Below, one piece after another: positions 49,757 to 62,086 of a stretch of 64,000 bases of DNA. Position numbers and translations under genes: made by a program. The notes under the pieces were generated by a model. It was given only the letters and a program-made list of their open reading frames with translations. It searched no databases and was not told the DNA's origin. Within the stretch, counting starts at the first letter, position 1; each line of letters begins with the position of its first letter. The stretch spans positions 2,852,001 through 2,916,000 of the forward strand of contig NZ_JAUSXG010000001.1 of the NCBI RefSeq assembly GCF_030815855.1, given 5' to 3'. Source of the DNA: Variovorax paradoxus. Lineage in GTDB: Bacteria > Pseudomonadota > Gammaproteobacteria > Burkholderiales > Burkholderiaceae_C.

Positions 49757-50599
49757 TCAGGGCAGGAGTTCGAACTTGAGGTCGGCCAGCGGCATGACTT
49801 TTTCTTCGCGCGCCATCTTGTACTCGGTGTTCGGCCCGAGCCACTTCGCCCAGAGCTTGTCGAGCTCGCCCGACTTCTCCAGCGCGTAGAGCGCGGTGTT
49901 CACCTTGGACAGCAGCGCCGGCTCGTCCTTCTTCATGCCGATGCCGATGGGCTGCAGCACCATCGGCTCGTTGATCATCTTCAGCGCCACGCCCTCGGTC
50001 TTCGACTGGTTGACCAGCTTGGTGATGGTCATGGTGTTCGCGACCATGCCGACCGACTTGTTCTGCTGCACCGCCATGAAGGCCGAACCCGTGTCCTGGA
50101 AGGTCACCGGCTCGGAGCCGTTCATCTTGATCGACAGCTCCGAGGTCGAACCCTTGGTGGAGCTCAGGCGCTTGCCCTTGAAATCGGCTTTGGCCGAGCC
50201 TGGGTCGGAGGCTTTCACCGCGAGCATTTCCTTGGCCACGTAGTACGGGTCGCTGAACTGGATCTGCTCGCCGCGGCTCTTGGTGTAGGCCAGGTTGGCA
50301 ATGGTCACGTCGACGCGGCCGAGCTTGACCTCGGGCACACGCGCCTCCACCGACAGCGGCGTGACCTTGGCCGTCAAGCCGAGTTCCTTGGCGAGCGCAT
50401 GACACAGGTCGACGTCGTGGCCCACCATTTCGCGCGTCTTCGGATCGGGGGCCGCGAACGGCGGCACGTCGGCAAAGGTGCCGCAGCGCAACTCCTTGCG
50501 CTGGCTGATCTCGCTCCACTGGTCGGCATGCGCCAGCAAGGACAGAGCGCAAAGGCAGGCGCCGATGGCGGTGAGACGGAAAGCGGTTCTGTTCGACAT
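49757..50599 (-). CDS. Amino-acid ABC transporter, periplasmic binding protein
   Basis: 280 residues with a signal peptide (AFRLTAIGACLCALSLLAHA). The mature protein is an extracellular solute-binding family 3 (PAAT) protein: LRCGTFADVPPFAAPDPKTR, GHDVDLCHALAKEL, VDVTIANLAYTKSRGEQIQF and LDKLWAKWLGPNTEY. Ligands of this family are polar amino acids such as glutamate, aspartate or glutamine. It is the last gene of a leftward operon (SDR, two permeases, ATPase, this gene) that starts at 53720. Confidence 0.9.
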   Translation of the reverse strand: MSNRTAFRLTAIGACLCALSLLAHADQWSEISQRKELRCGTFADVPPFAAPDPKTREMVGHDVDLCHALAKELGLTAKVTPLSVEARVPEVKLGRVDVTIANLAYTKSRGEQIQFSDPYYVAKEMLAVKASDPGSAKADFKGKRLSSTKGSTSELSIKMNGSEPVTFQDTGSAFMAVQQNKSVGMVANTMTITKLVNQSKTEGVALKMINEPMVLQPIGIGMKKDEPALLSKVNTALYALEKSGELDKLWAKWLGPNTEYKMAREEKVMPLADLKFELLP

Positions 50600-50643
50600 G
50601 ATGAACTCCTGGAGGATGCGAAGAAGAATAAGAAAACGACGAT

Positions 50644-51378
50644 TCAATGCGCGCGCAGGTCCGACAGAAAGCGCTGCGCGCGCGGATGCTGCGGATGGCT
50701 GAAAAAGCTCTCGGGGTCGGCCTTCTCGAGAATGCGGCCCGCGTCCATGAACCAGACGCGGTCGGCCACCTCGCGGGCGAAGTTCATCTCGTGCGTGACG
50801 CACATCATGGTCATGCCGTCGTTGGCCAGGCTGCGCATCACCGACAGCACCTCGCCCACCATCTCGGGATCAAGCGCGCTGGTGGGTTCGTCGAACAGCA
50901 TCGCCGGCGGCTCCATCGCCAACGCGCGGGCAATGGCCACGCGCTGTTGCTGGCCGCCCGAAAGCTGCGCCGGGTAGGCACCGGCCTTGTTCGAGAGGCC
51001 CACGCGCTCGAGCAGCTGAGCCGCCCTGGTTTTCGCCTCGCCGCGCCTCACGCCCAGCACGCGCATGGGCGACAGCATGATGTTCTCGAGCACCGAGAGA
51101 TGCGGAAACAGGTTGAAGCTCTGGAACACGAAGCCGATGCGGCTGCGCAGCTTGTTGAGTGCCGCGCTGCTCATGGGCGCGTGAATGTCGTGGCCATCGA
51201 ACAGCAGCTGCCCCGACTTCACTTCTTCCAGGCGGTTGACGGTGCGGATCAGCGTGGACTTGCCGGAGCCCGAAGGCCCGCAGACCACCACCACCTCGCC
51301 CTTCTTCACCTCGGCGTCGATGCCGGCCAGCGCCTGGTAGTCGCCGTACCACTTGTTGATGTTGGAGAACAGGATCAT
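50644..51378 (-). CDS. Amino-acid ABC transporter, ATP-binding subunit (GltL/GlnQ-like)
   Basis: 244 residues. Walker [11 protein letters not shown]-loop [13 protein letters not shown], signature LSGGQQQR, Walker B MLFDEP and H-loop CVTHEM are all standard for polar amino-acid transporters. The ATG at 51378 (MILFSN) is preferred over one at 51414. It powers uptake with the two permeases encoded upstream; the binding protein gene follows after 44 bp. Confidence 0.93.
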
Positions 51379-51459
51379 GGTGTCATCCCCTCTGGGGTGT
51401 GGAACGGGGTTCATGGCGCTGTCTCCTGGTCTTGTTGCCGATGGCCGTCGTGCGCGGCC

Positions 51460-52218
51460 TCACGGGTTCGCCGCCACCGGCGCCGGCAGCGGCGCACCGT
51501 CTTCGGATGTCTTCGCGGAAGTCGCACCGAGCCGCTTGTGGGCGATGCGCCGCTCCAGCCATTGCGTGAGCTGGGTCAGGCTGAAGCAGACCACGTAGTA
51601 CGTCATCGCGAGGATGAAGAACACCTGGAACGGTTTGGTCAGCAGCTGGTTGTTGATCTGGTTGGCCGCGAAGGTCAGTTCCTGCACGTTGATGACGTAG
51701 CCCAGCGTGGTCTCCTTGATGGTGGAGATGAACTGGCTCAGCATGCTCGGCAGCATGTTGTAGAGCGCCTGCGGCAGGATCACGAACCACATCGTGCCGA
51801 GATGGCTGTGGCCGAGCGCGCGCGCCGCCTCGGTCTGGCCCTTGGGCAGCGCCTGGATGCCGGCGCGCACCACCTCCGACAGGTAGGCGCCCTCGTAGAT
51901 CACCAACGTGCACAGCATGGTGGTGAAACCAGACACGTCCCGCCCGATCAGGATCGGCACCAGGAAGTAGACCCACAGAATCACCATCAGCAGCGGCACG
52001 CCGCGCACCACATAGACCAGTACCGTGGCCGGCCAGCGCAAGACGCGCCAGGGCGACAGCCGCGCAAGCGCCAGCAGCACCGAGAGCGGAAACGCCAGCA
52101 CGATGCCCAGCATCGAGAGGATCAGCGTGGCGACGATGCCGCCGAGCGGGCCGCTGGGGTACTGGCCGACGAGCAGCAGCAGCCAGTTGTCGCGAAGGAT
52201 TTCAAGGACGCTGAACAT
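51460..52218 (-). CDS. Amino-acid ABC transporter, permease (GltK-like)
   Basis: 252 residues with five or so membrane helices and the EAA loop YLSEVVRAGIQALPKGQTEAARALG that contacts the ATPase. The His/Glu/Met-type polar amino-acid permease pattern is clear (RGVPLLMVILWVYF, LPQALYNMLPSMLSQFIS). The C-terminal 25 residues are a low-complexity tail. It follows the other permease by 6 bp, so they probably form a heterodimer. Confidence 0.91.
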   Translation of the reverse strand: MFSVLEILRDNWLLLLVGQYPSGPLGGIVATLILSMLGIVLAFPLSVLLALARLSPWRVLRWPATVLVYVVRGVPLLMVILWVYFLVPILIGRDVSGFTTMLCTLVIYEGAYLSEVVRAGIQALPKGQTEAARALGHSHLGTMWFVILPQALYNMLPSMLSQFISTIKETTLGYVINVQELTFAANQINNQLLTKPFQVFFILAMTYYVVCFSLTQLTQWLERRIAHKRLGATSAKTSEDGAPLPAPVAANP

Positions 52219-52224
52219 GGCGTG

Positions 52225-52926
52225 TTACCTCGCGCCCACGATGCGGTAGCGCCGCGCCAGCCAGCCGCCTACGGCCATGATGAGCAGCGAGCACACGAGG
52301 TACAGCGCCGTCGCCATGCTGTAGGCCTCGAAAGTGCGAAAACTCTGGCTTTCGATTTCCTTCACCGCGTGGGTCAGCTCGGCCACGCCGATGGCCATCG
52401 CCAGGCTGCTGTTCTTGAACAGCGACACGCTGTGGTTGACCAGCGCCGGCACCGCATTGCGGATGGCCTGCGGCAGCATCACATGGCGCATCGAGCCGAT
52501 GTAGCCGTGGCCCAGGGCGCGCGCGGCCTCGGCCTGCCCGCCCGGGATCGAGCGCAGGCCCGAACGCATGTCCTCGCTGAAGTAGGCGGCCTGGCAGAGC
52601 CCGAGCGCGACGATCGAGAGAATGGTCTCGGCGTTGTGCACCGAGAGCCAACCCTGCAGCGCATCGGGCAGCAGGCTGAAGATGCCGAAGTACCAGAGCA
52701 TGAGCTGCACCAGCGTCGGCACGTTGCGGTGGTAGGAGACATAGCCGGCCACCACGCGCTCGGCCAGCCGGCTCGGGGTGAGGCGCACGACGAGCAGCAC
52801 GACCGCCATGGCCATGGCCAGCAGCCATGAACCGGCCGCGATCTTCAGCGTTTGCTGCAGGCCGTGCCAGAGCATCGCCCCGAACTCCGGTTTCAGCAGG
52901 ATCGCCAGCAGATCGAAGTCCTTCAT
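52225..52926 (-). CDS. Amino-acid ABC transporter, permease (GltJ-like)
   Basis: 233 residues. EAA loop YFSEDMRSGLRSIPGGQAEAARALG and SYHRNVPTLVQLMLWYFGIF identify the polar amino-acid permease family. The order J-K-L and GltIJKL-like sequences point to glutamate/aspartate or a similar ligand. The ATG at 52926 lies 41 bp after the SDR gene. The same frame stays open far upstream but that part is a shadow of the SDR gene. Confidence 0.91.
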   Translation of the reverse strand: MKDFDLLAILLKPEFGAMLWHGLQQTLKIAAGSWLLAMAMAVVLLVVRLTPSRLAERVVAGYVSYHRNVPTLVQLMLWYFGIFSLLPDALQGWLSVHNAETILSIVALGLCQAAYFSEDMRSGLRSIPGGQAEAARALGHGYIGSMRHVMLPQAIRNAVPALVNHSVSLFKNSSLAMAIGVAELTHAVKEIESQSFRTFEAYSMATALYLVCSLLIMAVGGWLARRYRIVGAR

Positions 52927-52967: not shown

Positions 52968-53720
52968 TCAGGCCTGCGGCGCTTCCGGCCGCGCGGTCGA
53001 GAGCCCGCCTGGCACCTGCAGCGTGGGCGTGATTTCCATGTGGCCCACGTTGACCGCAATGGGCGCCGCGATGGCGAAGGCGATCGCGTTGGCGATGTCC
53101 TCGGCCTGCGGCAGCTCGTAGCCTTCGACGAAGCGCTTGCGTGTCTCCTCGGAATCGCCGTGCACGTGCGCGAAGATGTCGGTGGCCACGCGCCCCGGGC
53201 AGATCTCGGTCACGCGCACGCGCTTGCCGAACACGTCGATGCGCAGCTGGCGCGACAGCATGCTCACGGCCGCCTTGGTCGCGTGGTAGGTGCTGTTGCC
53301 GCCGAAGTTGTAGGCCGCGGCAATGGAGCTGATGTTGACCACGTGGCCGCGGTCGCGCGCGGCCATGCCGGGCACCACGAGACGGCACAGGTGCAGCACG
53401 GCGCGCAGGTTCACGTCGACCAGCAGGTCGATGCCCTCGGCGTCGGCCTTCAGGATGGAACCGGGGCGGTCCACGCCGGCGTTGTTGACCAGCACGTCGA
53501 ACGCCACCTCCTGCGTGAGGCGCGTAATGCCGGCGAGGTCGCTCACGTCGATGGCGTGCGGAATGCAGCCGGTGCGCGCGGCCAATTCGGCGAGCTTGTC
53601 GCCGCTGCGCGCCAGTGCATGGACCGTGAGGCCTTCCTTGCACAGGCGCTCGACGACCGCGGCGCCGATGCCCGAGGAGGCGCCCGTCACCAGCGCGGTC
53701 TTGTAGTCGGAGAACGGCAT
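52968..53720 (-). CDS. Short-chain dehydrogenase/reductase
   Basis: 250 residues of a classical SDR. Cofactor motif TGASSGIG at residues 12-19, NNAG (structural), catalytic Ser in NISSIAA and Tyr/Lys in TYHATK are present. It resembles YdfG-like 3-hydroxy acid dehydrogenases (serine/3-hydroxypropionate type), which would fit an amino-acid operon. It is the first gene of the transport operon; the shared 40-bp element lies 68 bp upstream of its start. Confidence 0.92.
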   Translation of the reverse strand: MPFSDYKTALVTGASSGIGAAVVERLCKEGLTVHALARSGDKLAELAARTGCIPHAIDVSDLAGITRLTQEVAFDVLVNNAGVDRPGSILKADAEGIDLLVDVNLRAVLHLCRLVVPGMAARDRGHVVNISSIAAAYNFGGNSTYHATKAAVSMLSRQLRIDVFGKRVRVTEICPGRVATDIFAHVHGDSEETRKRFVEGYELPQAEDIANAIAFAIAAPIAVNVGHMEITPTLQVPGGLSTARPEAPQA

Positions 53721-53788
53721 CTTGCTTCTTTCGTTGGAAACTGCAGATCACTGCTTTGATTCACTGTATCGAGCGCTTCTGCGCGGCG

Positions 53789-53828
53789 CCAAGACGGATT
53801 GGCTGTGGAGCGATAAGCCGCCCTTATG
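53789..53828 (+). promoter_or_regulatory. 40-bp conserved element with a Nac-type site, upstream of the SDR/transport operon
   Basis: The proximal end reads CCAAGACGGATTGG and the distal end ATAAG-N5-CTTATG. The 15-bp core ATAAGCCGCCCTTAT fits the Nac consensus ATA-N9-TAT. The whole element recurs with identical spacing at 59016-59055 and, inverted, at 60079-60118, always with CCAAGACG nearest the regulated gene. Confidence 0.75.
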
Positions 53829-53886
53829 TTGCCCCTTGTTCGTGCGCATGACCTAGGGTAAGCACCATGTCCGGGCTCCGGACCTG

Positions 53887-54651
53887 CTAGTCCGGCTGCC
53901 TCGAAATGGGCATCACGCGTCCCGCCTGCTCGACCACGCCACGCACCGCGCGGGCCAGGTCCACCGCACCGGGCGTGTCGCCATGCAACAGGATGGAATG
54001 TGCGCGCATCGTGATCTTTTTTCCGCTGTAGCTGGTGACGGTGCCTTCCTCCAGCAGCTGGCGCACGCGCGCGAGCACCGCGCCCTGGTCGTGGATCACC
54101 GAGTCGGGCAGTTTGCGCGGCACCAGCAGGCCGTCGTCGTCGCAGGCGCGGTCGGCCAGGAAGGTGGTGCGCACGCGCAGGCCGCAGCGCGCGGCCGCAT
54201 CCTCGATGGCGCGGCTGGTGGAAGAACTGATGGTGAGCGAGGGATCGAAGTCGGCCACGGCGCGCACCAGCGGCTCGGCGAGCGCCGCATCGGCCGCGGC
54301 CATGTTGCCGAGCGCGCCGTGAAAGCTCATGTGCGTCATGCGGTGGCCGGCGGTGCGCGCCATACCGTCGAGCGCGCTCAGCTGGTAGAGCACGTAGGCG
54401 ACGAGTTCCTTCGGCTCGATCTGCATCGGCCGGCGGCCGAACCCGAGCAGGTCGGGAAAGCCCACGTGCGCCCCGACATCGACGCCGCGCGCGAGCGCCA
54501 TGCGCACGGTGCGGTCCATGATGACCGGGTCGCCCGCATGAAAACCGCAGGCCACGTTGGCCGAAGAGACGATGTCCAGCAGCGCCTCGTCCTCGCCCAT
54601 GTGCCAGGGGCCGAAGCCTTCGCCGAGGTCCGCGTTCAGGTCGATGTCCAT
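53887..54651 (-). CDS. pxpA: 5-oxoprolinase subunit A (LamB/YcsF family)
   Basis: 254 residues of the LamB/YcsF family, which with PxpB and PxpC forms a prokaryotic ATP-dependent 5-oxoprolinase. The opening DLNADLGEGFGPWHMG, the ACGFHAGDP loop and VKPHGAL-like MSFHGALGNM are characteristic. It is separated from pxpB/pxpC by a BCCP-like gene and a repeat. It is the last gene of the accB-accC-pxpB-pxpC-BCCP-pxpA series. Confidence 0.92.
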   Translation of the reverse strand: MDIDLNADLGEGFGPWHMGEDEALLDIVSSANVACGFHAGDPVIMDRTVRMALARGVDVGAHVGFPDLLGFGRRPMQIEPKELVAYVLYQLSALDGMARTAGHRMTHMSFHGALGNMAAADAALAEPLVRAVADFDPSLTISSSTSRAIEDAAARCGLRVRTTFLADRACDDDGLLVPRKLPDSVIHDQGAVLARVRQLLEEGTVTSYSGKKITMRAHSILLHGDTPGAVDLARAVRGVVEQAGRVMPISRQPD

Positions 54652-54674
54652 GGGGTGTCCTTCTTGCTCGTTCG

Positions 54675-55070
54675 TCAGAGGGCTTGCAGGTCGAACAGCG
54701 GCATACCGTAGCCGACCGCAAGGCCGTCGGCTGCGTGGATGCGGTCGACGATGCCGGCCTGCGGCGCGGTCACGGGCAGCAGCAGCGGGCCGATCTTCAT
54801 CAGGCCCACGGTTTGCCCGGTTTCCACGCGTTCACCGGTGCGCGCAAGGGGCGCGGCGGCTAGCGGATGGCTGTGCAGGAACAGGCCGACCGAAGGGGCG
54901 TGGATTGTCAGGCGTTCGGGCTCGGCTTCTTCATCCGGCAGTTCGATGATTTCGTCGCCCTGCCGGCCGAGGCGCAGCGTGCCCTGCGGCGTGCGCAGTT
55001 CGAGCAGGCCGATGTCGGTGCCGGCCAGCCAGGCGGCCAGTTGCGGGGTGCGCAGTGCGGTGTCCTGCAT
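54675..55070 (-). CDS. Second biotin carboxyl carrier-like protein
   Basis: 131 residues of the AccB/biotinyl-lipoyl type. The C-terminal domain (from about residue 55) has the fold's strings HAPSVGLFLH, GERVETGQTVGLMKIG and APQAGIVDRI. Lys92 in LMKIG occupies the biotin position, but the canonical A/V-MKM is changed to LMKI, so biotinylation is uncertain. A similar gene with EAMKM lies upstream at 58488. It is 23 bp from pxpA. Confidence 0.82.
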   Translation of the reverse strand: MQDTALRTPQLAAWLAGTDIGLLELRTPQGTLRLGRQGDEIIELPDEEAEPERLTIHAPSVGLFLHSHPLAAAPLARTGERVETGQTVGLMKIGPLLLPVTAPQAGIVDRIHAADGLAVGYGMPLFDLQAL

Positions 55071-55084
55071 GTCAGTTCTTCCCG

Positions 55085-55150
55085 GGGTGCTTTTGTTCGG
55101 GGCGCTTTTGTTCGGGGCGCTGCTGTTCAGGGCGCTGCTGTTCAGGGCGC
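55085..55150. repeat. 15-bp imperfect tandem repeats
   Basis: Four to five units of the form GGGCGCTKYTGTTCR follow each other between the BCCP gene and the large inverted repeat. On the minus strand they could encode Ala-Leu/Pro-Asn-Ser/Lys-Ser pentads, but the BCCP start at 55070 excludes them. Confidence 0.65.
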
Positions 55151-55411
55151 GTGCACAGGCCACCGGGTACTCCCCTCCGCGAATGTCCCCCGGCTTCGCC
55201 TCCTCCTTGATTTCGCTGCGGGGAGCACCCGATGCCCTGTGCACTAGGGCACGCTCTCGGTGCACCGCCGATCAACGACCGCTGTTTGCAACGCTCCGGC
55301 CGATGGGGTGCCTTGCGCAGCGAAATCAAGGAGGAGGCCGCAGGCCGGGGGACATTCGCGGAGCAAGGTACCCCGTCGGCGGGAGTGCGCCCTGAATGGC
55401 GCCCTGAACCG
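55131..55411. repeat. Large palindromic repeat element inside the pxp operon
   Basis: The left half carries CCGCGAATGTCCCCCGGC, then CCTCCTCCTTGATTTCGCTG (about 55176-55219). The right half (about 55317-55362) carries their reverse complements in mirrored order, with small differences. Outer shoulders also mirror each other (GTTCAGGGCGC at left; GCGCCCTGAA at right, to 55411). About 100 bp of unique sequence lies in the middle. No transposase is present. The element fills the 386-bp gap 55071-55456 and separates pxpC from the BCCP gene. Confidence 0.75.
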
Positions 55412-55456
55412 CCCACTTCACACACAAGAAGAAGAATTGAAAAGAGAGGTTCCATC

Positions 55457-56452
55457 TCAGTGCCTTCCCACAGGCACAGGCGCACCGCGGTGCAGTTCCA
55501 CCATGCGCGCCACCTTGTCCAGCCAGGCGCGCACTTCATCGAGCGCGGCCAGCGCTTCGTCCCAGGTGGTTTCGATGAAGCGCATGCGGCTGCCGATCGG
55601 CGCCTGGCCGAGACGCCACATGTCGGCCTCGATCACGGTGCCGAACTTGGGGTAGCCGCCCGAGGGCTGGGCGTCTCGCATCTGGATGATGGGCTGCCCG
55701 CTGTGCGGCACCTGGATCACGCCGGGCACGATGCCGTGCGAGCGCAGTTCCATCGGCGCGATGGGGCGCAGCGCTTCGCCCTCCAGCCGGTAGCCGTAGC
55801 GGTCGCTCTGGGAGGTGATCTTCCATTCACCGGCCCAGAAAGCGTCACGCGACGCCGGCTCGAAAGCCATGTACTCGGCTGCGGGCAGGACGCGTACAGC
55901 GGCCACGCCATCGCGCTCCAACGGCAATGCGAGCGCGGGCGGCACCAGGCCGAAGCCGGTCTTGCATGCCGCGCCTGCGCCTGCCGCGCGCAAGACATCG
56001 CCCCGGCGCAGCGCCCGCCCTTCATGGCCACCGAAGGCGCCGCGCAACTGCGTGCTGCGCGAACCCAGCACTTCGGGCACGTCGACCCCGCCCGCCAGGC
56101 ACAGCATGGCACGGCTGCCGCGCTGCGCGCCGCCTTGCGGCAGGCCCAGCGCCAGCACCTGCCCGGTCCGCGCCCGGTGCACCCACCAGGGCAGCAGCGG
56201 CTGGTCGTCCAGCCGCGCCGCGCAATCGGCCCCGGTCAATGCGAAAGCGCAGTCCTCGCCGAACCGCACCTTGAACGGAAACACCGGGACTTCGATGGCA
56301 GCCGCGTCGACCGCATTGCCCAGCAGCAGGTTGCCGGCCGCGAGCGACAGGTTGTCCATGGCGCCCGAAGTGCCGACGCCCCAGCGCAGGCTGCCGGTGC
56401 GCCCCAGGTCCTGCACGGTGGCGAGCGCGGCAGATGAAAGCACTTCGATCAT
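55457..56452 (-). CDS. pxpC: 5-oxoprolinase subunit C
   Basis: 331 residues of the biotin-dependent carboxyltransferase-like (KipA/AHS2) family. VLSSAALATVQDLGRTGSLR, GVGTSGAMD, GADCAARLDD and QPSGGYPKFGTVIEADMWRL are typical. With PxpB it makes the catalytic module that opens 5-oxoproline using ATP. Its ATG overlaps the pxpB stop by 4 bp (ATGA). The large repeat begins just beyond its 3' end. Confidence 0.93.
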   Translation of the reverse strand: MIEVLSSAALATVQDLGRTGSLRWGVGTSGAMDNLSLAAGNLLLGNAVDAAAIEVPVFPFKVRFGEDCAFALTGADCAARLDDQPLLPWWVHRARTGQVLALGLPQGGAQRGSRAMLCLAGGVDVPEVLGSRSTQLRGAFGGHEGRALRRGDVLRAAGAGAACKTGFGLVPPALALPLERDGVAAVRVLPAAEYMAFEPASRDAFWAGEWKITSQSDRYGYRLEGEALRPIAPMELRSHGIVPGVIQVPHSGQPIIQMRDAQPSGGYPKFGTVIEADMWRLGQAPIGSRMRFIETTWDEALAALDEVRAWLDKVARMVELHRGAPVPVGRH

Positions 56453-57123
56453 CGGACGATGCCCTCTACGCGGAAACGGATCATGTCGCCCGGCTGCAGC
56501 GCCGCGGGCGGGTCCTTCGCCGGGTCGAAGAAGCACATCGAGGTGCTGCCGATGGTGTTCCAGCCGCTGGGCCCGGCCGAGGCCGAGACGCCGGTCTGCG
56601 CACCGCCGATCGACACCGCACCGCCCGGGATGCTCAGCACCGGCACCTTGCGGCGCGGCGTGGCGATGCGCGCGTCCATGCCGCCCAGATAGCAGTAGCC
56701 CGGGTGGCTGCCGAGCGCATACACCGGATAGAGCGGCGCGCTATGCAGTTCGACGATCCGCTCGACGCTGAGGCCCGTGTGCGCCACCACGTCGGCCATG
56801 TGCGGGCCGCCCTCGCCGCCGTAGACCACGGGCAGCTCGACCACGCGGCCGTCCCGCGGCAGCGCGACGGCCGCGTCCCATGCATCGCACAGGCGCGCCT
56901 CCAGGGCCTCGAGCGCAGCATGGCCGCGCGGCGAGCGCAGGAAGGTCAGCATCAGGTTGTTCATGCCCGGCACAGCTTCGCGAATCTCTGGCCAGGCCTG
57001 GGTTTCGTGCGCCAGCGCCCAGATGCGCTGCTGCGAGCTGAGGTTCATCTCCCCGGGCGCTTCGAAGATCAGCGCGGTCGTGCCCAGCAGACTGATCGAT
57101 GGCTCTTGTGCAATTGCGATCAC
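56449..57123 (-). CDS. pxpB: 5-oxoprolinase subunit B
   Basis: 224 residues of the KipI/AHS1 family. [39 protein letters not shown] and [13 protein letters not shown] are diagnostic, as is [20 protein letters not shown]. The start is a GTG at 57123 that overlaps the accC stop by 4 bp (GTGA). The gene order accB-accC-pxpB-pxpC suggests a shared role with a biotin carboxylase. Confidence 0.93.
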
Positions 57124-58472
57124 GCCGCGCTCCTTTGCTGCAGCCAGCGTTCGAGGTGATGGATGTCCACGCCGCCGACGGCAAAACCCTCGTCGCGCAG
57201 CAGTTCGCGGTGCAGGGGCACGTTGGTCACGATGCCGTCGATGCGCATCTCCGCGAGCGCGAGGCGCATGCGGGCCAGCGCATCGGTGCGAGTGGCGCCG
57301 TGCACGATCAGCTTGGCGATCATCGAGTCGTAGTACGGCGGCACGCGGTAGCCGGCGTTGGCATGCGAATCGACGCGCACTCCGAAACCGCCCGGCACCT
57401 GCCAGCCGGTGATGCGCCCGGGCGAAGGCGCGAAGGTGTTGGGGTTCTCGGCGTTGATGCGGCACTCGATCGCATGGCCCTGGCATCGCACCTCGCGCTG
57501 CACCAGCGAAAGTCGCTCGCCGCGCGCCATGCGCAGCTGCTGCTGCACGATGTCGATGCCCGCGGTCATCTCGGTCACCGGATGCTCGACCTGAAGGCGG
57601 GTGTTCATCTCGATGAAATAGAAGGCGCCCTTCTCGTAGAGAAACTCGAAGGTGCCCACGCCGCAGTAGCCGATCTGCCGGCAGGCGGCCGCGCAACGCT
57701 CGCCCACCTCGGCCATCAGTGCGTCGTCGATGCCGGGCGCCGGTGCCTCCTCGATCACCTTCTGATGGCGGCGCTGCAGCGAACAGTCGCGGCTGCCAAG
57801 CCACACGGCGCTGCCGTGGCTGTCGGCCAGCACCTGGATCTCGACATGGCGCGGGTGCAGCAAGAATTTCTCGATGTAGACCTCGGGGTTGCCGAAGGCC
57901 TGGCGCGCTTCCTCGCGCGTGAGCGCCATTGCATCGAGCAGCGCCGCTTCGCCCAGCACCACGCGCATGCCGCGCCCACCGCCACCGCCCGCGGCCTTGA
58001 CGATGACCGGGTAGCCGATGTCGCGCGCAATGGCCTGGACGGCCGCCGGGTCTTGCGGCAGCGCCTCGTCAGGCCCCGGCACGCAGGGCACGCCGGCTTT
58101 GCGCATCGCGCGCTTGGCCGAGACCTTGTCGCCCATGGTACGGATGCAGGCGGCGCTGGGGCCGATGAAGACGAGCCCCGCCTCTTCGACGCGCGCGGCA
58201 AAGGCCGCGTTCTCCGACAGGAAGCCGTAGCCCGGATGGATGGCCTGCGCGCCGCTGACTTCGGCCGCGAACAGGATCGCGGACTGGTTCAGGTAGCTCT
58301 GCCCCGGCGCTGAGGGCCCGATGCACAGCGCCTGGTCGGCCTGTGCGACGTAGCTCGCCTCGCGGTCTGCCTCGGAGTGCGCGACCACGGTCCTGAGGCC
58401 CAGGCCGCGGCAGGCGCGCAGGATGCGCAAAGCGATTTCACCGCGGTTGGCAATGAGGACGGTATCGAACAT
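57120..58472 (-). CDS. accC: Biotin carboxylase subunit (AccC type)
   Basis: 450 residues, full-length. [20 protein letters not shown] at the N-terminus, the ATP-grasp glycine loop [27 protein letters not shown] and the catalytic region of EFLYEKGAF are all present. It carboxylates biotin with bicarbonate and ATP. It is unlikely to be the housekeeping fatty-acid enzyme, because it sits in a pxp operon under a Nac-type site. It is probably the carboxylase half of a catabolic enzyme. Confidence 0.92.
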
Positions 58473-58487
58473 ATCGCGCGGCCTTCC

Positions 58488-58916
58488 TCAACCGAAGCGG
58501 AACAGGGGCTGCCCTGCGTCCACTTCCTGGCCCGAACGCACCAGCACGGCCTGAACGGTGGCGTCTGCGTCGGCGCGAATTTCGTTGAACATCTTCATGG
58601 CCTCGATCACGCACAGCATCTGGCCGGCCTCCACGGCCTGCCCCGGCTGCACGAACGGCGGCTCGCCGGGCGTCGGCTGCAAGTGCACCACGCCATAGAG
58701 TGGCGCGAGGCATTCGGCTGCAGCCGCCGGCGTCGGTTCCGCAGACACCGCGGCGCGCGCCCTTCGCACGACCGCCGGGCTTCGCACCGCTGGCCCAGAC
58801 GTCAACGCCGATTGCTTCACCAGCCGCAACCTGCTGCCGTCTTCGCTGTACTCCAGCTCCGCAAGGTCCGAGGCCGCGAGTGCGTCGATGAGCGTCTTGA
58901 TCTGTTCCTGCTTCAT
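58488..58916 (-). CDS. accB: Biotin carboxyl carrier protein (AccB type)
   Basis: 142 residues. An N-terminal helical segment (KQEQIKTLIDALAASDLAEL) and an Ala/Pro linker precede the biotinyl domain, with EAMKM at 105-109 (Lys108 carries biotin). It is the first gene of the accB-accC-pxpB-pxpC operon, and the shared 40-bp element lies 100 bp upstream of its ATG. A second, degenerate BCCP occurs further down the operon. Confidence 0.92.
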   Translation of the reverse strand: MKQEQIKTLIDALAASDLAELEYSEDGSRLRLVKQSALTSGPAVRSPAVVRRARAAVSAEPTPAAAAECLAPLYGVVHLQPTPGEPPFVQPGQAVEAGQMLCVIEAMKMFNEIRADADATVQAVLVRSGQEVDAGQPLFRFG

Positions 58917-59015
58917 GCCGGGCCTGTCTGTGGCGACAGAACATCCTTGGTGGCCGACGCATTCCGCGAACGCGTGACGGCAGGCATGAAAGGTAACGGG
59001 CCGCGCACACAAAGC

Positions 59016-59055
59016 CCAAGACGGAATGGCTGTGCCGGGATAAGGCCGGCTTATG
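59016..59055 (+). promoter_or_regulatory. 40-bp conserved element with a Nac-type site, upstream of accB
   Basis: CCAAGACGGAATGG at the gene-proximal end and ATAAGGCCGGCTTAT (ATA-N9-TAT) at the distal end. It aligns without gaps with 53789-53828 and with the reverse complement of 60079-60118. It also lies just downstream of the nac-like gene's 3' end. Confidence 0.75.
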
Positions 59056-59076
59056 ACACCACGTACGACACCACGT

Positions 59077-60015
59077 TTAAGACAGCGCGGCGAGATCGGG
59101 TTCGGGCGTGGCCGCGAAGGTTGTGGCGAGATCGACCACCAGCTCGAGCAGGATGCTTTTCACCGCCTGCGCCGGCTCCGAAAGCGGCAGGTGGTCCGAC
59201 TGGCACAGTGCCAGCGGCGCCTCGATGACGGGATCGACGATCTGGAACTGCCAGGCCCCGCAGGCCGCCACCACTTCGCGCGCCATCGACGCCGGCAGGA
59301 TGGTAGCGCCCAGCCCGTCGGCGATGGCCGCCGTCAGCGTGAAGGCCGATTCGATCTCGGCCACCACGCGCGGCGCCATGCCCGCACGCACGAAGGCCGC
59401 GTCGACCAGCTTGCGCACCACGTTGTAGGGGCGCGGCAAAAAGAGTTCGATGTCGCGCAGGTCGGCCAGCTTCACCGGCTGCGCCGGCGCCGGCATCGCT
59501 GCCGGCCCGACCAGGAACAGCGGTTCCTTGAGCAGCGACAGGAAGCTCAGGCCGTGGATCGCCTTGTCGCCGTAGAGCACAGCGAGGTCCATGCGCCCGT
59601 TCATGATGAGCTCGCTCAGCGTGGTGCCGTAGTTCTCGTTCAGGTAGAGCAGGATGCCGGGGTGGCGCGCACGCACGGTGCGCAAGAGCGGCAACGAGAG
59701 CGCCGAGGCCGCCGTGCCGGGCGCAAGCCCCACCGACACCTGGCCCGAGAGCCCTTCGCCGGCCGCTTCCATATCGACGCGCGCCTGCTCGCACTGGCGC
59801 AGGATGATCTGCGCATGCCGGTACAGCACCTTGCCGGCCTCGGTGGGCGTCACGCCGCGCTTGGTGCGCACGAGCAACTGCTGGCGCACCTCGCCTTCGA
59901 GCGTGGCCAGTTGCTGGCTCAGCGCGGGCTGGGCGATGAAAAGAACCTCGGCCGCCTGCGTCAGGCTGCCGATGTCCACGATCTTCACGAAATATTTGAG
60001 GCGTCGCAGGTTCAC
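59077..60015 (-). CDS. nac: Nac-like LysR regulator
   Basis: 312 residues from a GTG at 60015. The N-terminal 65 residues (RRLKYFVKIVDIGSLTQAAE, IAQPALSQQLATLEGEVR, LLVRTKRGVTPTEAGKVLY) are nearly those of the enterobacterial nitrogen assimilation control protein Nac; GLAPGTAASALSLPLLRTVR also fits. Nac binds ATA-N9-TAT and adjusts nitrogen metabolism under limitation. Three such sites flank this gene and its neighbours. It is divergent from the aminotransferase gene. Confidence 0.9.
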   Translation of the reverse strand: MNLRRLKYFVKIVDIGSLTQAAEVLFIAQPALSQQLATLEGEVRQQLLVRTKRGVTPTEAGKVLYRHAQIILRQCEQARVDMEAAGEGLSGQVSVGLAPGTAASALSLPLLRTVRARHPGILLYLNENYGTTLSELIMNGRMDLAVLYGDKAIHGLSFLSLLKEPLFLVGPAAMPAPAQPVKLADLRDIELFLPRPYNVVRKLVDAAFVRAGMAPRVVAEIESAFTLTAAIADGLGATILPASMAREVVAACGAWQFQIVDPVIEAPLALCQSDHLPLSEPAQAVKSILLELVVDLATTFAATPEPDLAALS

Positions 60016-60078
60016 GCCGTGTCCCCAAGCAAAAGCCGAGCCTAGCACTGCGCCTGTGCGGCAGGTATAGGCGCTCAC

Positions 60079-60118
60079 CATAAGCTGCGCCTATACGACC
60101 AGTGCAATCTCGTCTTGG
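60079..60118 (-). promoter_or_regulatory. 40-bp conserved element with a Nac-type site, between nac-like gene and aminotransferase
   Basis: On the minus strand it reads CCAAGACG at the end nearest the aminotransferase gene and CTTATG at the far end; the plus-strand core ATAAGCTGCGCCTAT is ATA-N9-TAT. Overlapping it is a perfect 9-bp inverted repeat, GTATAGGCG (60065-60073) and CGCCTATAC (60088-60096), which could be the site for autoregulation. Confidence 0.75.
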
Positions 60119-60177
60119 CCTCGCGTGATCGATCTGCGTACCGTTCAGTCCATGCAATCCCAGACACAGGAAGTCAT

Positions 60178-61386
60178 GTGACCACGTCCCGCATTGCCGC
60201 CCGCGTGCGGCGCATCAAGCCCTCGCCCAGCACCTCGGCCGCCGACCGTGCCAACGAACTGCGCCGCCAGGGCAAGTCGATCGTGAACCTCGTGGTGGGC
60301 GAGCCCGACTTCGACACGCCGCCCCACATCCGGCAGGCCGCTGCCGCCGCCATCGAGAAAGGCGCGACGCGCTACACCCTCATGGCCGGCACGGTGGAGC
60401 TGCGTCAGGCCATCATCGCCAAGCTCGAACGCGAGAACGGCCTGCGCTACGCGATGAACGAGGTCATCGCCACCAGCGGTGCCAAGAGCGCGATCTACAA
60501 CGCCTTTGCCGTCACGCTGGAGCCAGGCGACGAAGTCATCATTCCCGCGCCTTACTGGGTGTCGTACCCCGACATGGTGCTGGCCTGCGAAGGCACGCCG
60601 GTCACGGTGGCCTGCCCCGAAGCCAACGGCTTCAAGCTGACGCCCGCGCAACTGGAGGCCGCGATCACGCCGCGCACGCGCTGGCTGCTGATCAACTCGC
60701 CCAGCAACCCGACCGGCGCCAGCTACACCGGTGGCGAATACCGCGCGCTGGCCGAGGTGCTGCAGCGCCATCCGCAGGTGATGGTGATGACCGACGACAT
60801 CTACGAGCACATCCGCTTCGACGCCGAGGCAACGCCGCACCTGCTTGCGGTCGCGCCCGCGCTGCGCGAGCGCACGCTGGTGGTGAACGGCGTTTCGAAG
60901 ACCTATGCGATGACGGGCTGGCGCATCGGCTATGCAGCCGGCCCGGCCGATCTGATCCAGGCGCTGGACACGCTGCTGTCGCAGTCCACCGGCAACTGCT
61001 GCTCGGTGAGCCAGGCGGCCGCCGCGGCGGCGCTCAACGGTAACCAGGGCTTCGTGGCCGAGAGCGTGGCGATCTACAAGCAGCGCCGCGACCGCACCCT
61101 TGCACTCATCAACGACATTCCCGGCCTGCGCTGCGCCGCGCCGTCCGGCGCCTTCTATCTGTACATCCACTGCGGTGGCCTCGTCGGCAAGACCACGCCA
61201 GAGGGCAAGCGGCTTGACGAAGACGGCGACGTGGTGATGTACCTGCTCGAAAGCGAAGGCGTGGCACTGGTTGCGGGCACCGCCTACGGGCTCTCGCCCT
61301 ACTTCCGTCTTTCCATCGCCACCGGCATCGAGACGCTGGAAGAAGGCTGCGCGCGCATCGCGCGAGCCGTGGCGGCCCTGCGCTGA
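60178..61386 (+). CDS. Aspartate/aromatic aminotransferase-like class I aminotransferase
   Basis: 402 residues. VGEPDFDTPPHI, GATRYTLMAGTVELR, NSPSNPTGA and the PLP-lysine region VVNGVSKTYAMTGWRIGYAAG are those of AspC subgroup Ib enzymes. The start is a GTG at 60178, with GGAAG before it; an ATG-initiated frame from 60115 is less likely because it would overlap the regulatory element. The gene lies 59 bp downstream of the 40-bp element and 28 bp before the RraA-like gene. Confidence 0.9.
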   Translation: MTTSRIAARVRRIKPSPSTSAADRANELRRQGKSIVNLVVGEPDFDTPPHIRQAAAAAIEKGATRYTLMAGTVELRQAIIAKLERENGLRYAMNEVIATSGAKSAIYNAFAVTLEPGDEVIIPAPYWVSYPDMVLACEGTPVTVACPEANGFKLTPAQLEAAITPRTRWLLINSPSNPTGASYTGGEYRALAEVLQRHPQVMVMTDDIYEHIRFDAEATPHLLAVAPALRERTLVVNGVSKTYAMTGWRIGYAAGPADLIQALDTLLSQSTGNCCSVSQAAAAAALNGNQGFVAESVAIYKQRRDRTLALINDIPGLRCAAPSGAFYLYIHCGGLVGKTTPEGKRLDEDGDVVMYLLESEGVALVAGTAYGLSPYFRLSIATGIETLEEGCARIARAVAALR

Positions 61387-61414: not shown

Positions 61415-62086
61415 ATGCCCTACAAAGCCATTCGCAAGAACCCGTCCGCCGCACCGGTCGCACCCAAGATCCTCACCGCGCTGCGGGAGATTCCCGTGGC
61501 AGCGCTGAGCGACAACATGCACCGCAACATCGGCAGCATGGGCCTGCACCCTTACCACCGCCCGAGCGGCCGGACGATGGCGGGCACGGCCGTCACGGCG
61601 CGCTCGCGCGGCGGCGACAACCTGACGTATTTGCGCGCCCTGGAGTTCTGCCGGCCCGGTGACGTGCTGGTGATCGACGCCGGCGGCGACCTCAACAATG
61701 CGGTGGTCGGCGGCATCCTCTCGTTCTACGCGGCGCACATCGGCGTCCTGGGTGTGGTGATCGACGGCGCCATCCGAGACGTTGCCGAGGTCCGGGCGCG
61801 CGAGTTTCCGGTCTACGCGCGAGGCGTCACCCACCGCGGTCCCTACAAGGACGGGCCCGGCGAGATCAACGTGCCGGTTTCGGTGGGCGGGATGGTCGTC
61901 AATCCGGGCGACATCGTGGTCGGCGATCAGGACGGGCTCATGGCCTTCGCGCCCGACGAATCCGAGCTGCTGATCGAGAAGGCACAAGCGCACCTGGCGA
62001 CGGAAGCAGAGACCATCCGAGCCATGAAGGAAGGCCGTTGGGACCGCGCCTTCATCGACGCGCTCGAGGCACGCTGCCTCAACTGA
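61415..62086 (+). CDS. RraA-family protein (HMG/CHA aldolase-like)
   Basis: 223 residues of the RraA/demethylmenaquinone methyltransferase-like fold. The family includes 4-hydroxy-4-methyl-2-oxoglutarate/oxaloacetate aldolases and decarboxylases. GTAVTARSRGGDN, the GGDLNNAVVGGILS loop, GVVIDGAIRDVAEVR and VNPGDIVVGDQDG are conserved; the R and D of the active site (AIRD) are present. It follows the aminotransferase in the same operon, so it could cleave the 2-oxo acid that the aminotransferase yields. Confidence 0.88.
   Translation: MPYKAIRKNPSAAPVAPKILTALREIPVAALSDNMHRNIGSMGLHPYHRPSGRTMAGTAVTARSRGGDNLTYLRALEFCRPGDVLVIDAGGDLNNAVVGGILSFYAAHIGVLGVVIDGAIRDVAEVRAREFPVYARGVTHRGPYKDGPGEINVPVSVGGMVVNPGDIVVGDQDGLMAFAPDESELLIEKAQAHLATEAETIRAMKEGRWDRAFIDALEARCLN

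Follow-up and report, generated by a model that had tools for sequence, protein, structure and literature searches.

What do three matching 40-bp elements do in a region of the Variovorax paradoxus genome where genes resembling those for 5-oxoprolinase and biotin carboxylase stand beside the gene of a LysR-type regulator related to Nac? The region lies in a stretch of 64,000 nucleotides (contig NZ_JAUSXG010000001.1, positions 2,852,001 to 2,916,000), the whole of which we call the window, and an earlier examination of its letters, hereafter the sequence-only reading, had taken the elements to define a Nac-like regulon. We retain one regulon with three operators but find Nac-style nitrogen control not indicated: the elements very probably serve as operator-promoters for a single local catabolic regulon under the adjacent LysR-type regulator.

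Three elements and one promoter module

The three elements were recovered where they had been placed (Table 1), with 0 matches in 100 shuffles, and each holds the ATA-N9-TAT core, the CTTATG and the CCAAGACG that had been described. Their distances to the start codons, 68 nt for the SDR gene (ATG 53720), 99 nt for accB (ATG 58916) and 59 nt for the aminotransferase gene (GTG 60178), agree with the proposed 59-100 bp. Across the three, 22 of 39 columns are invariant; elsewhere in the window the best agreement with these 22 is 15. In the 5.95-Mb genome, which forms one contig, elements 1-3 are the only matches at up to 3 mismatches, and the reversed pattern used as a control has no match at that tolerance. 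Chance similarity, or a dispersed repeat of no function, was rejected and deserves virtually no credence given the empty shuffles, the presence of just three copies in the genome, each at the head of an operon, and, as described below, conservation across classes and absence before internal genes.

A TANNNT hexamer stands equally far from all three elements, in each case 18 nt past a TTGGNN, and because this distance is constant the conserved unit is about 65 bp, larger than the 40-bp element itself. GTG 60015 is the most likely start of the regulator, since the match to the NCBIfam NAC model begins there (residue 23 of the listed open reading frame), and with that start element 3 sits between two divergent genes. 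Two features of LysR-type promoters are thus found: a divergent regulator gene adjoining a target promoter (element 3, between 60015 and 60178), and a T-N11-A palindrome centred near -65, given a +1 placed from the -10.

For a wider comparison we used the best 80 of 475 loci encoding relatives of the regulator, and selected 221 elements in which the palindrome and GTCTTGG stand at a constant distance from each other, with at most one substitution in each. At least one such strict element is present in 80/80 loci, and three or more in 55/80. The module consists of ATAAG-N5-CTTAT, then GTCTTGG overlapping the -35, then TANNNT as the -10, with exact spacing. A logo built from the 64 non-redundant sites kept out of the 221, numbered from the first A of ATAAG, has ATAAG at 1-5, C(T/C)TAT at 11-15 and GTCTTGGC at 33-40, and also columns that lay outside the selection: CA.A at 21-24, A at 28 and TA...T at 60-65. 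TANNNT starts exactly at 60 in 51 of these sites and at 59, 60 or 61 in 57; elsewhere, outside the module, the mean per position is 0.10. Provided that the -10 is correct and +1 is placed 7 nt past it, the palindrome would be centred at -64; LysR-type recognition sites are usually centred near -65.

Because of the logo, the fixed spacing and the TANNNT, the long conserved flank beyond the palindrome is best read as a putative activation site together with the -35 of a sigma-70 promoter. The sequence-only reading had left a choice between a co-regulator and a promoter element, and only the latter (activation site, -35 and -10) held up. Were GTCTTGG instead bound by another, unrelated protein acting as co-regulator next to the LysR site, one could account for a flank as conserved as the palindrome, although both were selection criteria, and for its reach upstream of the minimal -35. 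Such a co-regulator is nonetheless highly improbable given the fixed 17-nt spacing and the overlap with a -35 lying 18 nt from the conserved TANNNT. In addition, CTTAT replaces CTTGG in the flank at two enteric loci and in those Pseudomonas aminotransferase promoters that were read, which carry TCTTATGG in place of the strict flank; this looks as if the flank held a third half-site for the same protein.

Placement across genomes and the genes that follow

The first gene past the element was, among the 221, SDR in 72 cases, AccB in 67, the aminotransferase in 63, RraA in 8, AccC in 5 (read as missed accB starts), the regulator in 1 and unassigned in 5. Counted per gene, for genes with 300 nt of upstream sequence present, the strict element lies within 300 nt upstream of 71/71 SDR, 73/79 accB and 63/79 aminotransferase genes (the core alone in 78/79 of the last), of 8/52 RraA genes and of 1/79 regulator genes; the core precedes 67/79 regulator genes because element 3 sits between the two divergent genes. 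It was found upstream of none of the internal genes: PxpA 0/72, PxpB 0/76, PxpC 0/76, AccC 0/79, the two permeases 0/68 and 0/67, the ATPase 0/67 and the binding protein 0/64. Of the six accB genes lacking it, two keep the core (L057, L061) and four do not (L054, L056, L059, L072); in these four loci RraA leads the operon and the element stands before RraA. An RraA gene lying apart is preceded by an element of its own in four loci (L073, L085, L087, L091) and by the core alone in L082. Where the RraA gene has changed place, the element has thus gone with it. The module precedes accB, SDR and aminotransferase genes in betaproteobacteria, Pseudomonas and Acetobacteraceae-like genomes.

Elements also occur outside the three operons, at 4371-4409 of L026, where one stands before another SDR gene, and in similar places in G534, G535, G537 and G576. 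In a Caballeronia locus without pxp genes (L089, 617-715), two divergent elements precede genes that, judged from their translations, are alcohol-dehydrogenase-like and hydroxyacid-dehydrogenase-like, possibly another regulon of the same family.

Among 101 Variovorax genomes, the regulator was present in 50, the element in 50 and a PxpC-like gene in 48; regulator and element occur together in 49, and the two discordant genomes have only an element with 2 mismatches (G554) or only a 55% identical regulator (G565, 58% complete). The expectation that the element is kept with its genes was borne out, in that, scored by presence, 48/48 genomes with a PxpC-like gene have both regulator and element. 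One match to the reversed pattern was found in these 101 genomes, and a pattern with the spacing off by one base matched in 0/101. The system is patchy: among 399 genomes sampled from the order, no genome but that of the window encodes such a regulator at E <= 1e-80. Relatives at E <= 1e-70 were found in 17 of 398 evenly sampled Pseudomonadota genomes: the window's own, 12 in family f58, which we take for Enterobacteriaceae, and 4 in the more distant family f91.

A regulator related to Nac

That the regulator is close to Nac, as had been stated, is correct as to the subfamily: it shares 54% identity with E. coli Nac over 293 residues and 57 of the first 66 residues, which form the DNA-binding region, and it passes the NCBIfam NAC equivalog cut-off (495.8 bits vs 309). 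Together with the ATA-N9-TAT core found in all three elements, these similarities would favour a true Nac regulon, in which NtrC and sigma-54 would switch on the regulator gene when nitrogen is limiting, and the regulator would need no coeffector to pass nitrogen control on to these operons. We consider this unlikely. The window regulator stands at its own pathway genes and falls outside the clade of cbl-linked enteric Nac proteins; the tree rejects Nac identity, and because of this placement the NAC model seems too wide. The ATA-N9-TAT core does not point to Nac in particular, since the LysR-type regulator BhbR1 also has such a site (PMC12016517).

Twelve contexts of regulator relatives (L173-L184) were taken from the even sample. 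Of the enteric regions, seven belong to the Nac type: six with cbl beside nac (L176-L181) and one (L175) with tRNA-Asn and no cbl match; cbl and tRNA-Asn lie near nac in the enteric loci that we looked at. In two further enteric loci (L173, L174) and two of the three f91 loci among the twelve (L183, L184) the regulator stands at a cluster of PxpABC, SDR and transport genes, and elements can be recognised before SDR; AccC had no match in the two enteric clusters, and the third f91 locus (L182) has no pxp genes within its 20 kb. One genome (G938) carries both kinds, the pxp-linked L173 and the cbl-linked Nac L176, a further point against equating the two.

In a maximum-likelihood tree of 51 rows, in which rows were called pxp-linked from their loci (for L043 and L044 from contig stretches with accB and accC alone), the cbl-linked Nac clade comprises 7 rows (100/100). 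L175 joins it first (100/92), and then the enteric pxp-linked L173 and L174 (99/97). All of these lie inside a clade of 33 rows (100/99), the other 23 of which are pxp-linked, and further pxp-linked rows branch outside it. A constraint holding 28 core pxp-linked rows together was 26.6 log units worse (p-AU 0.0121); the same question, asked from the other side, gave p-AU 0.0562, and without four long branches p-AU was 0.0226, with no resolution of the family's deepest splits. The nesting of Nac among pxp-linked regulators is thus supported, though not beyond doubt, and the outgroup branches are long. The Nac-type gene of L175 (10010-11089), near tRNA-Asn and branching before the cbl-linked clade, is a possible intermediate.

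Enteric nac is under sigma-54 control, and Nac is active without a coeffector and made in nitrogen limitation. We sought the sigma-54-like site TGGCAC-N5-TTGC within 250 nt before regulator genes. With at most one mismatch it precedes 11/13 f58 loci, both pxp-linked ones included, and E. coli nac, as compared to 0/79 non-enteric loci, 0/4 f91 loci and about 1% of shuffles; before the window regulator there is no such site in 400 nt. This absence adds support to the rejection of Nac identity, and nitrogen control of the Nac style is not indicated by it, although the picture at up to two mismatches is less clean. The strong enteric site seems, from its distribution, to be older than the split between Nac and the pxp-linked regulators, and a weak ancestral site may have preceded it.

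A two-mismatch sigma-54-like site lies 28 nt before the window regulator's start codon, and sites with at most two mismatches precede 35/79 non-enteric loci vs 10-11% of shuffles (and 13/17 of the sample's regulators); because many of the loci are close kin, this excess, which speaks for a true Nac, is hard to weigh. Several other points weigh against a local regulon of the kind we propose. The aminotransferase copy retains the core without matching the strict element in 15/79 loci (12 of them Pseudomonas), and in L089 the aminotransferase gene has neither element nor core. The loci were picked by regulator similarity, and many are near-identical Variovorax; within that genus regulator and element are linked, and their co-occurrence could reflect joint inheritance of the block, so that the independent evidence comes from the module's persistence in different classes and from the RraA gene that changed place. 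Finally, the transcription start is predicted from the -10 only, and the regulatory part of the proposal from conservation and position only.

Taken together, the results permit one to envision that Nac had its origin in the local regulator of a pathway of the PxpABC/biotin-carboxylase type that is spread over Pseudomonadota, a joint reading that we regard as evenly balanced between true and false. It is suggested by the nesting of Nac among pxp-linked regulators and by the two enteric pxp-linked relatives with sigma-54-like sites. While still adjoining its pathway genes, the regulator gene would have gained a strong sigma-54 promoter in an enteric ancestor; a copy would then have landed beside a tRNA-Asn gene, with cbl joining later, and a global regulon would have been acquired while the DNA-binding domain was kept. 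In this reading, the window's 40-bp module would represent the ancestral operator type. The excess of two-mismatch sites makes this descent somewhat less likely and a true Nac in the window slightly more likely.

Three further observations concern relatives of Nac. ATA-N9-TAT was found within 400 nt before the regulator gene only for E. coli nac and L175 among 10 enteric regulators checked, and with the core this rare a shared site in Nac self-control found no support. The E. coli pxp operon was rejected as a parallel case under Nac, there being no ATA-N9-TAT in its 7-kb region (L093). In some Variovorax, second Nac-like regulators of 64-66% identity adjoin the same cluster (L021 7030-7914, L024 6862-7752, L032 7008-7889), and the one in L032 has a one-mismatch sigma-54-like site at -82.

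Proposed mechanism and known systems

From the observed sequence, spacing, conservation and co-occurrence we infer binding and activation as follows. A dimer of the regulator would bind the palindrome ATAAG-N5-CTTAT as a recognition site centred near -64, and a second dimer of the same tetramer would contact the GTCTTGG region beside the -35. The complex would then bring in RNA polymerase with sigma-70 at a promoter whose weak -35 (TTGGNN) is separated by an 18-nt spacer from its TANNNT -10, and the module would thereby drive the accB-accC-pxpB-pxpC-bccp2-pxpA, SDR/ABC-transport and aminotransferase/RraA operons; since element 3 adjoins the regulator gene, it may control the regulator too. The inducer would be a pathway metabolite, presumably a 5-oxoproline-like cyclic amide.

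The enzyme pathway is a conjecture. The ABC transporter may import a cyclic amide or related compound, AccB, AccC, PxpB, PxpC and PxpA may open its ring in an ATP- and biotin-dependent reaction, and oxidation by the SDR, transamination and an aldolase-like step by the RraA-family protein may follow. The window proteins pass the cut-offs of the PxpB model and the PxpA subfamily model; the firm name 5-oxoprolinase was rejected because the PxpC-like protein stays below the equivalog cut-off (Table 1).

Table 1. Elements, predicted promoters and genes of the locus (window coordinates)
Feature	Coordinates	Strand	Details
Element 1	53789..53828	-	before SDR/transport operon; palindrome 53813-53827; in gene direction CATAAG-N5-CTTAT-N17-GTCTTGG
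Element 2	59016..59055	-	before accB-accC-pxpB-pxpC-bccp2-pxpA operon; palindrome 59040-59054
Element 3	60079..60118	+	between divergent regulator and aminotransferase genes; palindrome 60080-60094
Predicted promoter, element 1	53763..53792	-	-35 TTGGCG 53787-53792; 18-nt spacer; -10 TACAGT 53763-53768
Predicted promoter, element 2	58990..59019	-	-35 TTGGGC 59014-59019; -10 TACCTT 58990-58995
Predicted promoter, element 3	60115..60144	+	-35 TTGGCC 60115-60120; -10 TACCGT 60139-60144
LysR-type regulator, Nac-containing subfamily	59077..60015	-	probable GTG start 60015; listed open reading frame to 60081
Pyridoxal-phosphate aminotransferase	60178..61386	+	NCBIfam PRK06107, 732.7 bits vs cut-off 617
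RraA-family protein, aldolase-like	61415..62086	+	NCBIfam PRK06201, 303.7 bits vs cut-off 231
AccB-like biotin carboxyl carrier protein	58488..58916	-	102.7 bits, below cut-off 115.2
AccC-like biotin carboxylase	57120..58472	-	TIGR00514, 666.4 bits vs cut-off 626.5
PxpB-like	56449..57123	-	TIGR00370, 195.5 bits vs cut-off 145.55
PxpC-like	55457..56452	-	above TIGR00724 cut-off; PxpC_5OPro 299.6 bits, below 500
bccp2, second weak biotin-carrier-like protein	54675..55070	-	28.9 bits
PxpA-like (LamB/YcsF)	53887..54651	-	331 bits vs cut-off 226, subfamily model
SDR-family oxidoreductase	52968..53720	-	first gene past element 1; family match
Amino-acid-type ABC transporter	49757..52926	-	two permeases, ATPase and binding protein; after SDR, same strand; order conserved; function read from translations

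The PxpB- and PxpC-like genes with AccC, AccB and the second carrier-like protein (55457-58916) resemble a split urea-carboxylase-type enzyme. A repeat of about 257 bp whose sequence is strongly palindromic lies between bccp2 and pxpC (55140-55400), with 35 near full-length copies in the genome, the window's included, at 84-100% identity, most of which match on the other strand too; the bccp2-pxpC gap that holds it varies among Variovorax loci.

The module gives a sharp operator-promoter prediction for a LysR regulon that recurs in betaproteobacteria, Pseudomonas, Acetobacteraceae-like bacteria and some further Pseudomonadota, enteric ones included. Proteins named NAC by automatic annotation include local regulators whose role is probably not nitrogen control; if the descent outlined above is true, the family would offer a possible route from a pathway regulator to a global one. 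Among the literature matches listed, from a search that left subscription journals mostly outside, no study dealt with this LysR regulon or with the origin of Nac.

Of the known systems, Nac recognises the consensus ATA-N9-TAT, of which a constant GTCTTGG module is not known to be part, and at Klebsiella hutU its site lies at -64 on a sigma-70 promoter. The window regulator belongs to the same LysR subfamily, shares the core and has a predicted -64 site resembling that of hutU; unlike Nac, it appears to be a local pathway regulator, without a clear sigma-54 promoter of its own and outside the Nac clade. The authors of a 2026 paper state that, to their knowledge, bacterial regulation of 5-oxoproline metabolism had previously been unstudied (PMC13274462). 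PxpR of Corynebacterium glutamicum likewise exerts local control over pxpABC and a transporter, but it is a GntR-type repressor with another operator, and the pxpTABC operon as described there names no biotin carboxylase gene (PMC13274462). BhbR1, the LysR-type regulator of 3-bromo-4-hydroxybenzoate catabolism in Pigmentiphaga, shows a similar promoter architecture, in which the recognition site near -65 has the form ATA-N9-TAT and the activation site overlaps with the -35 (PMC12016517); in contrast to BhbR1, the module of the window is constant at three promoters and belongs to another pathway.

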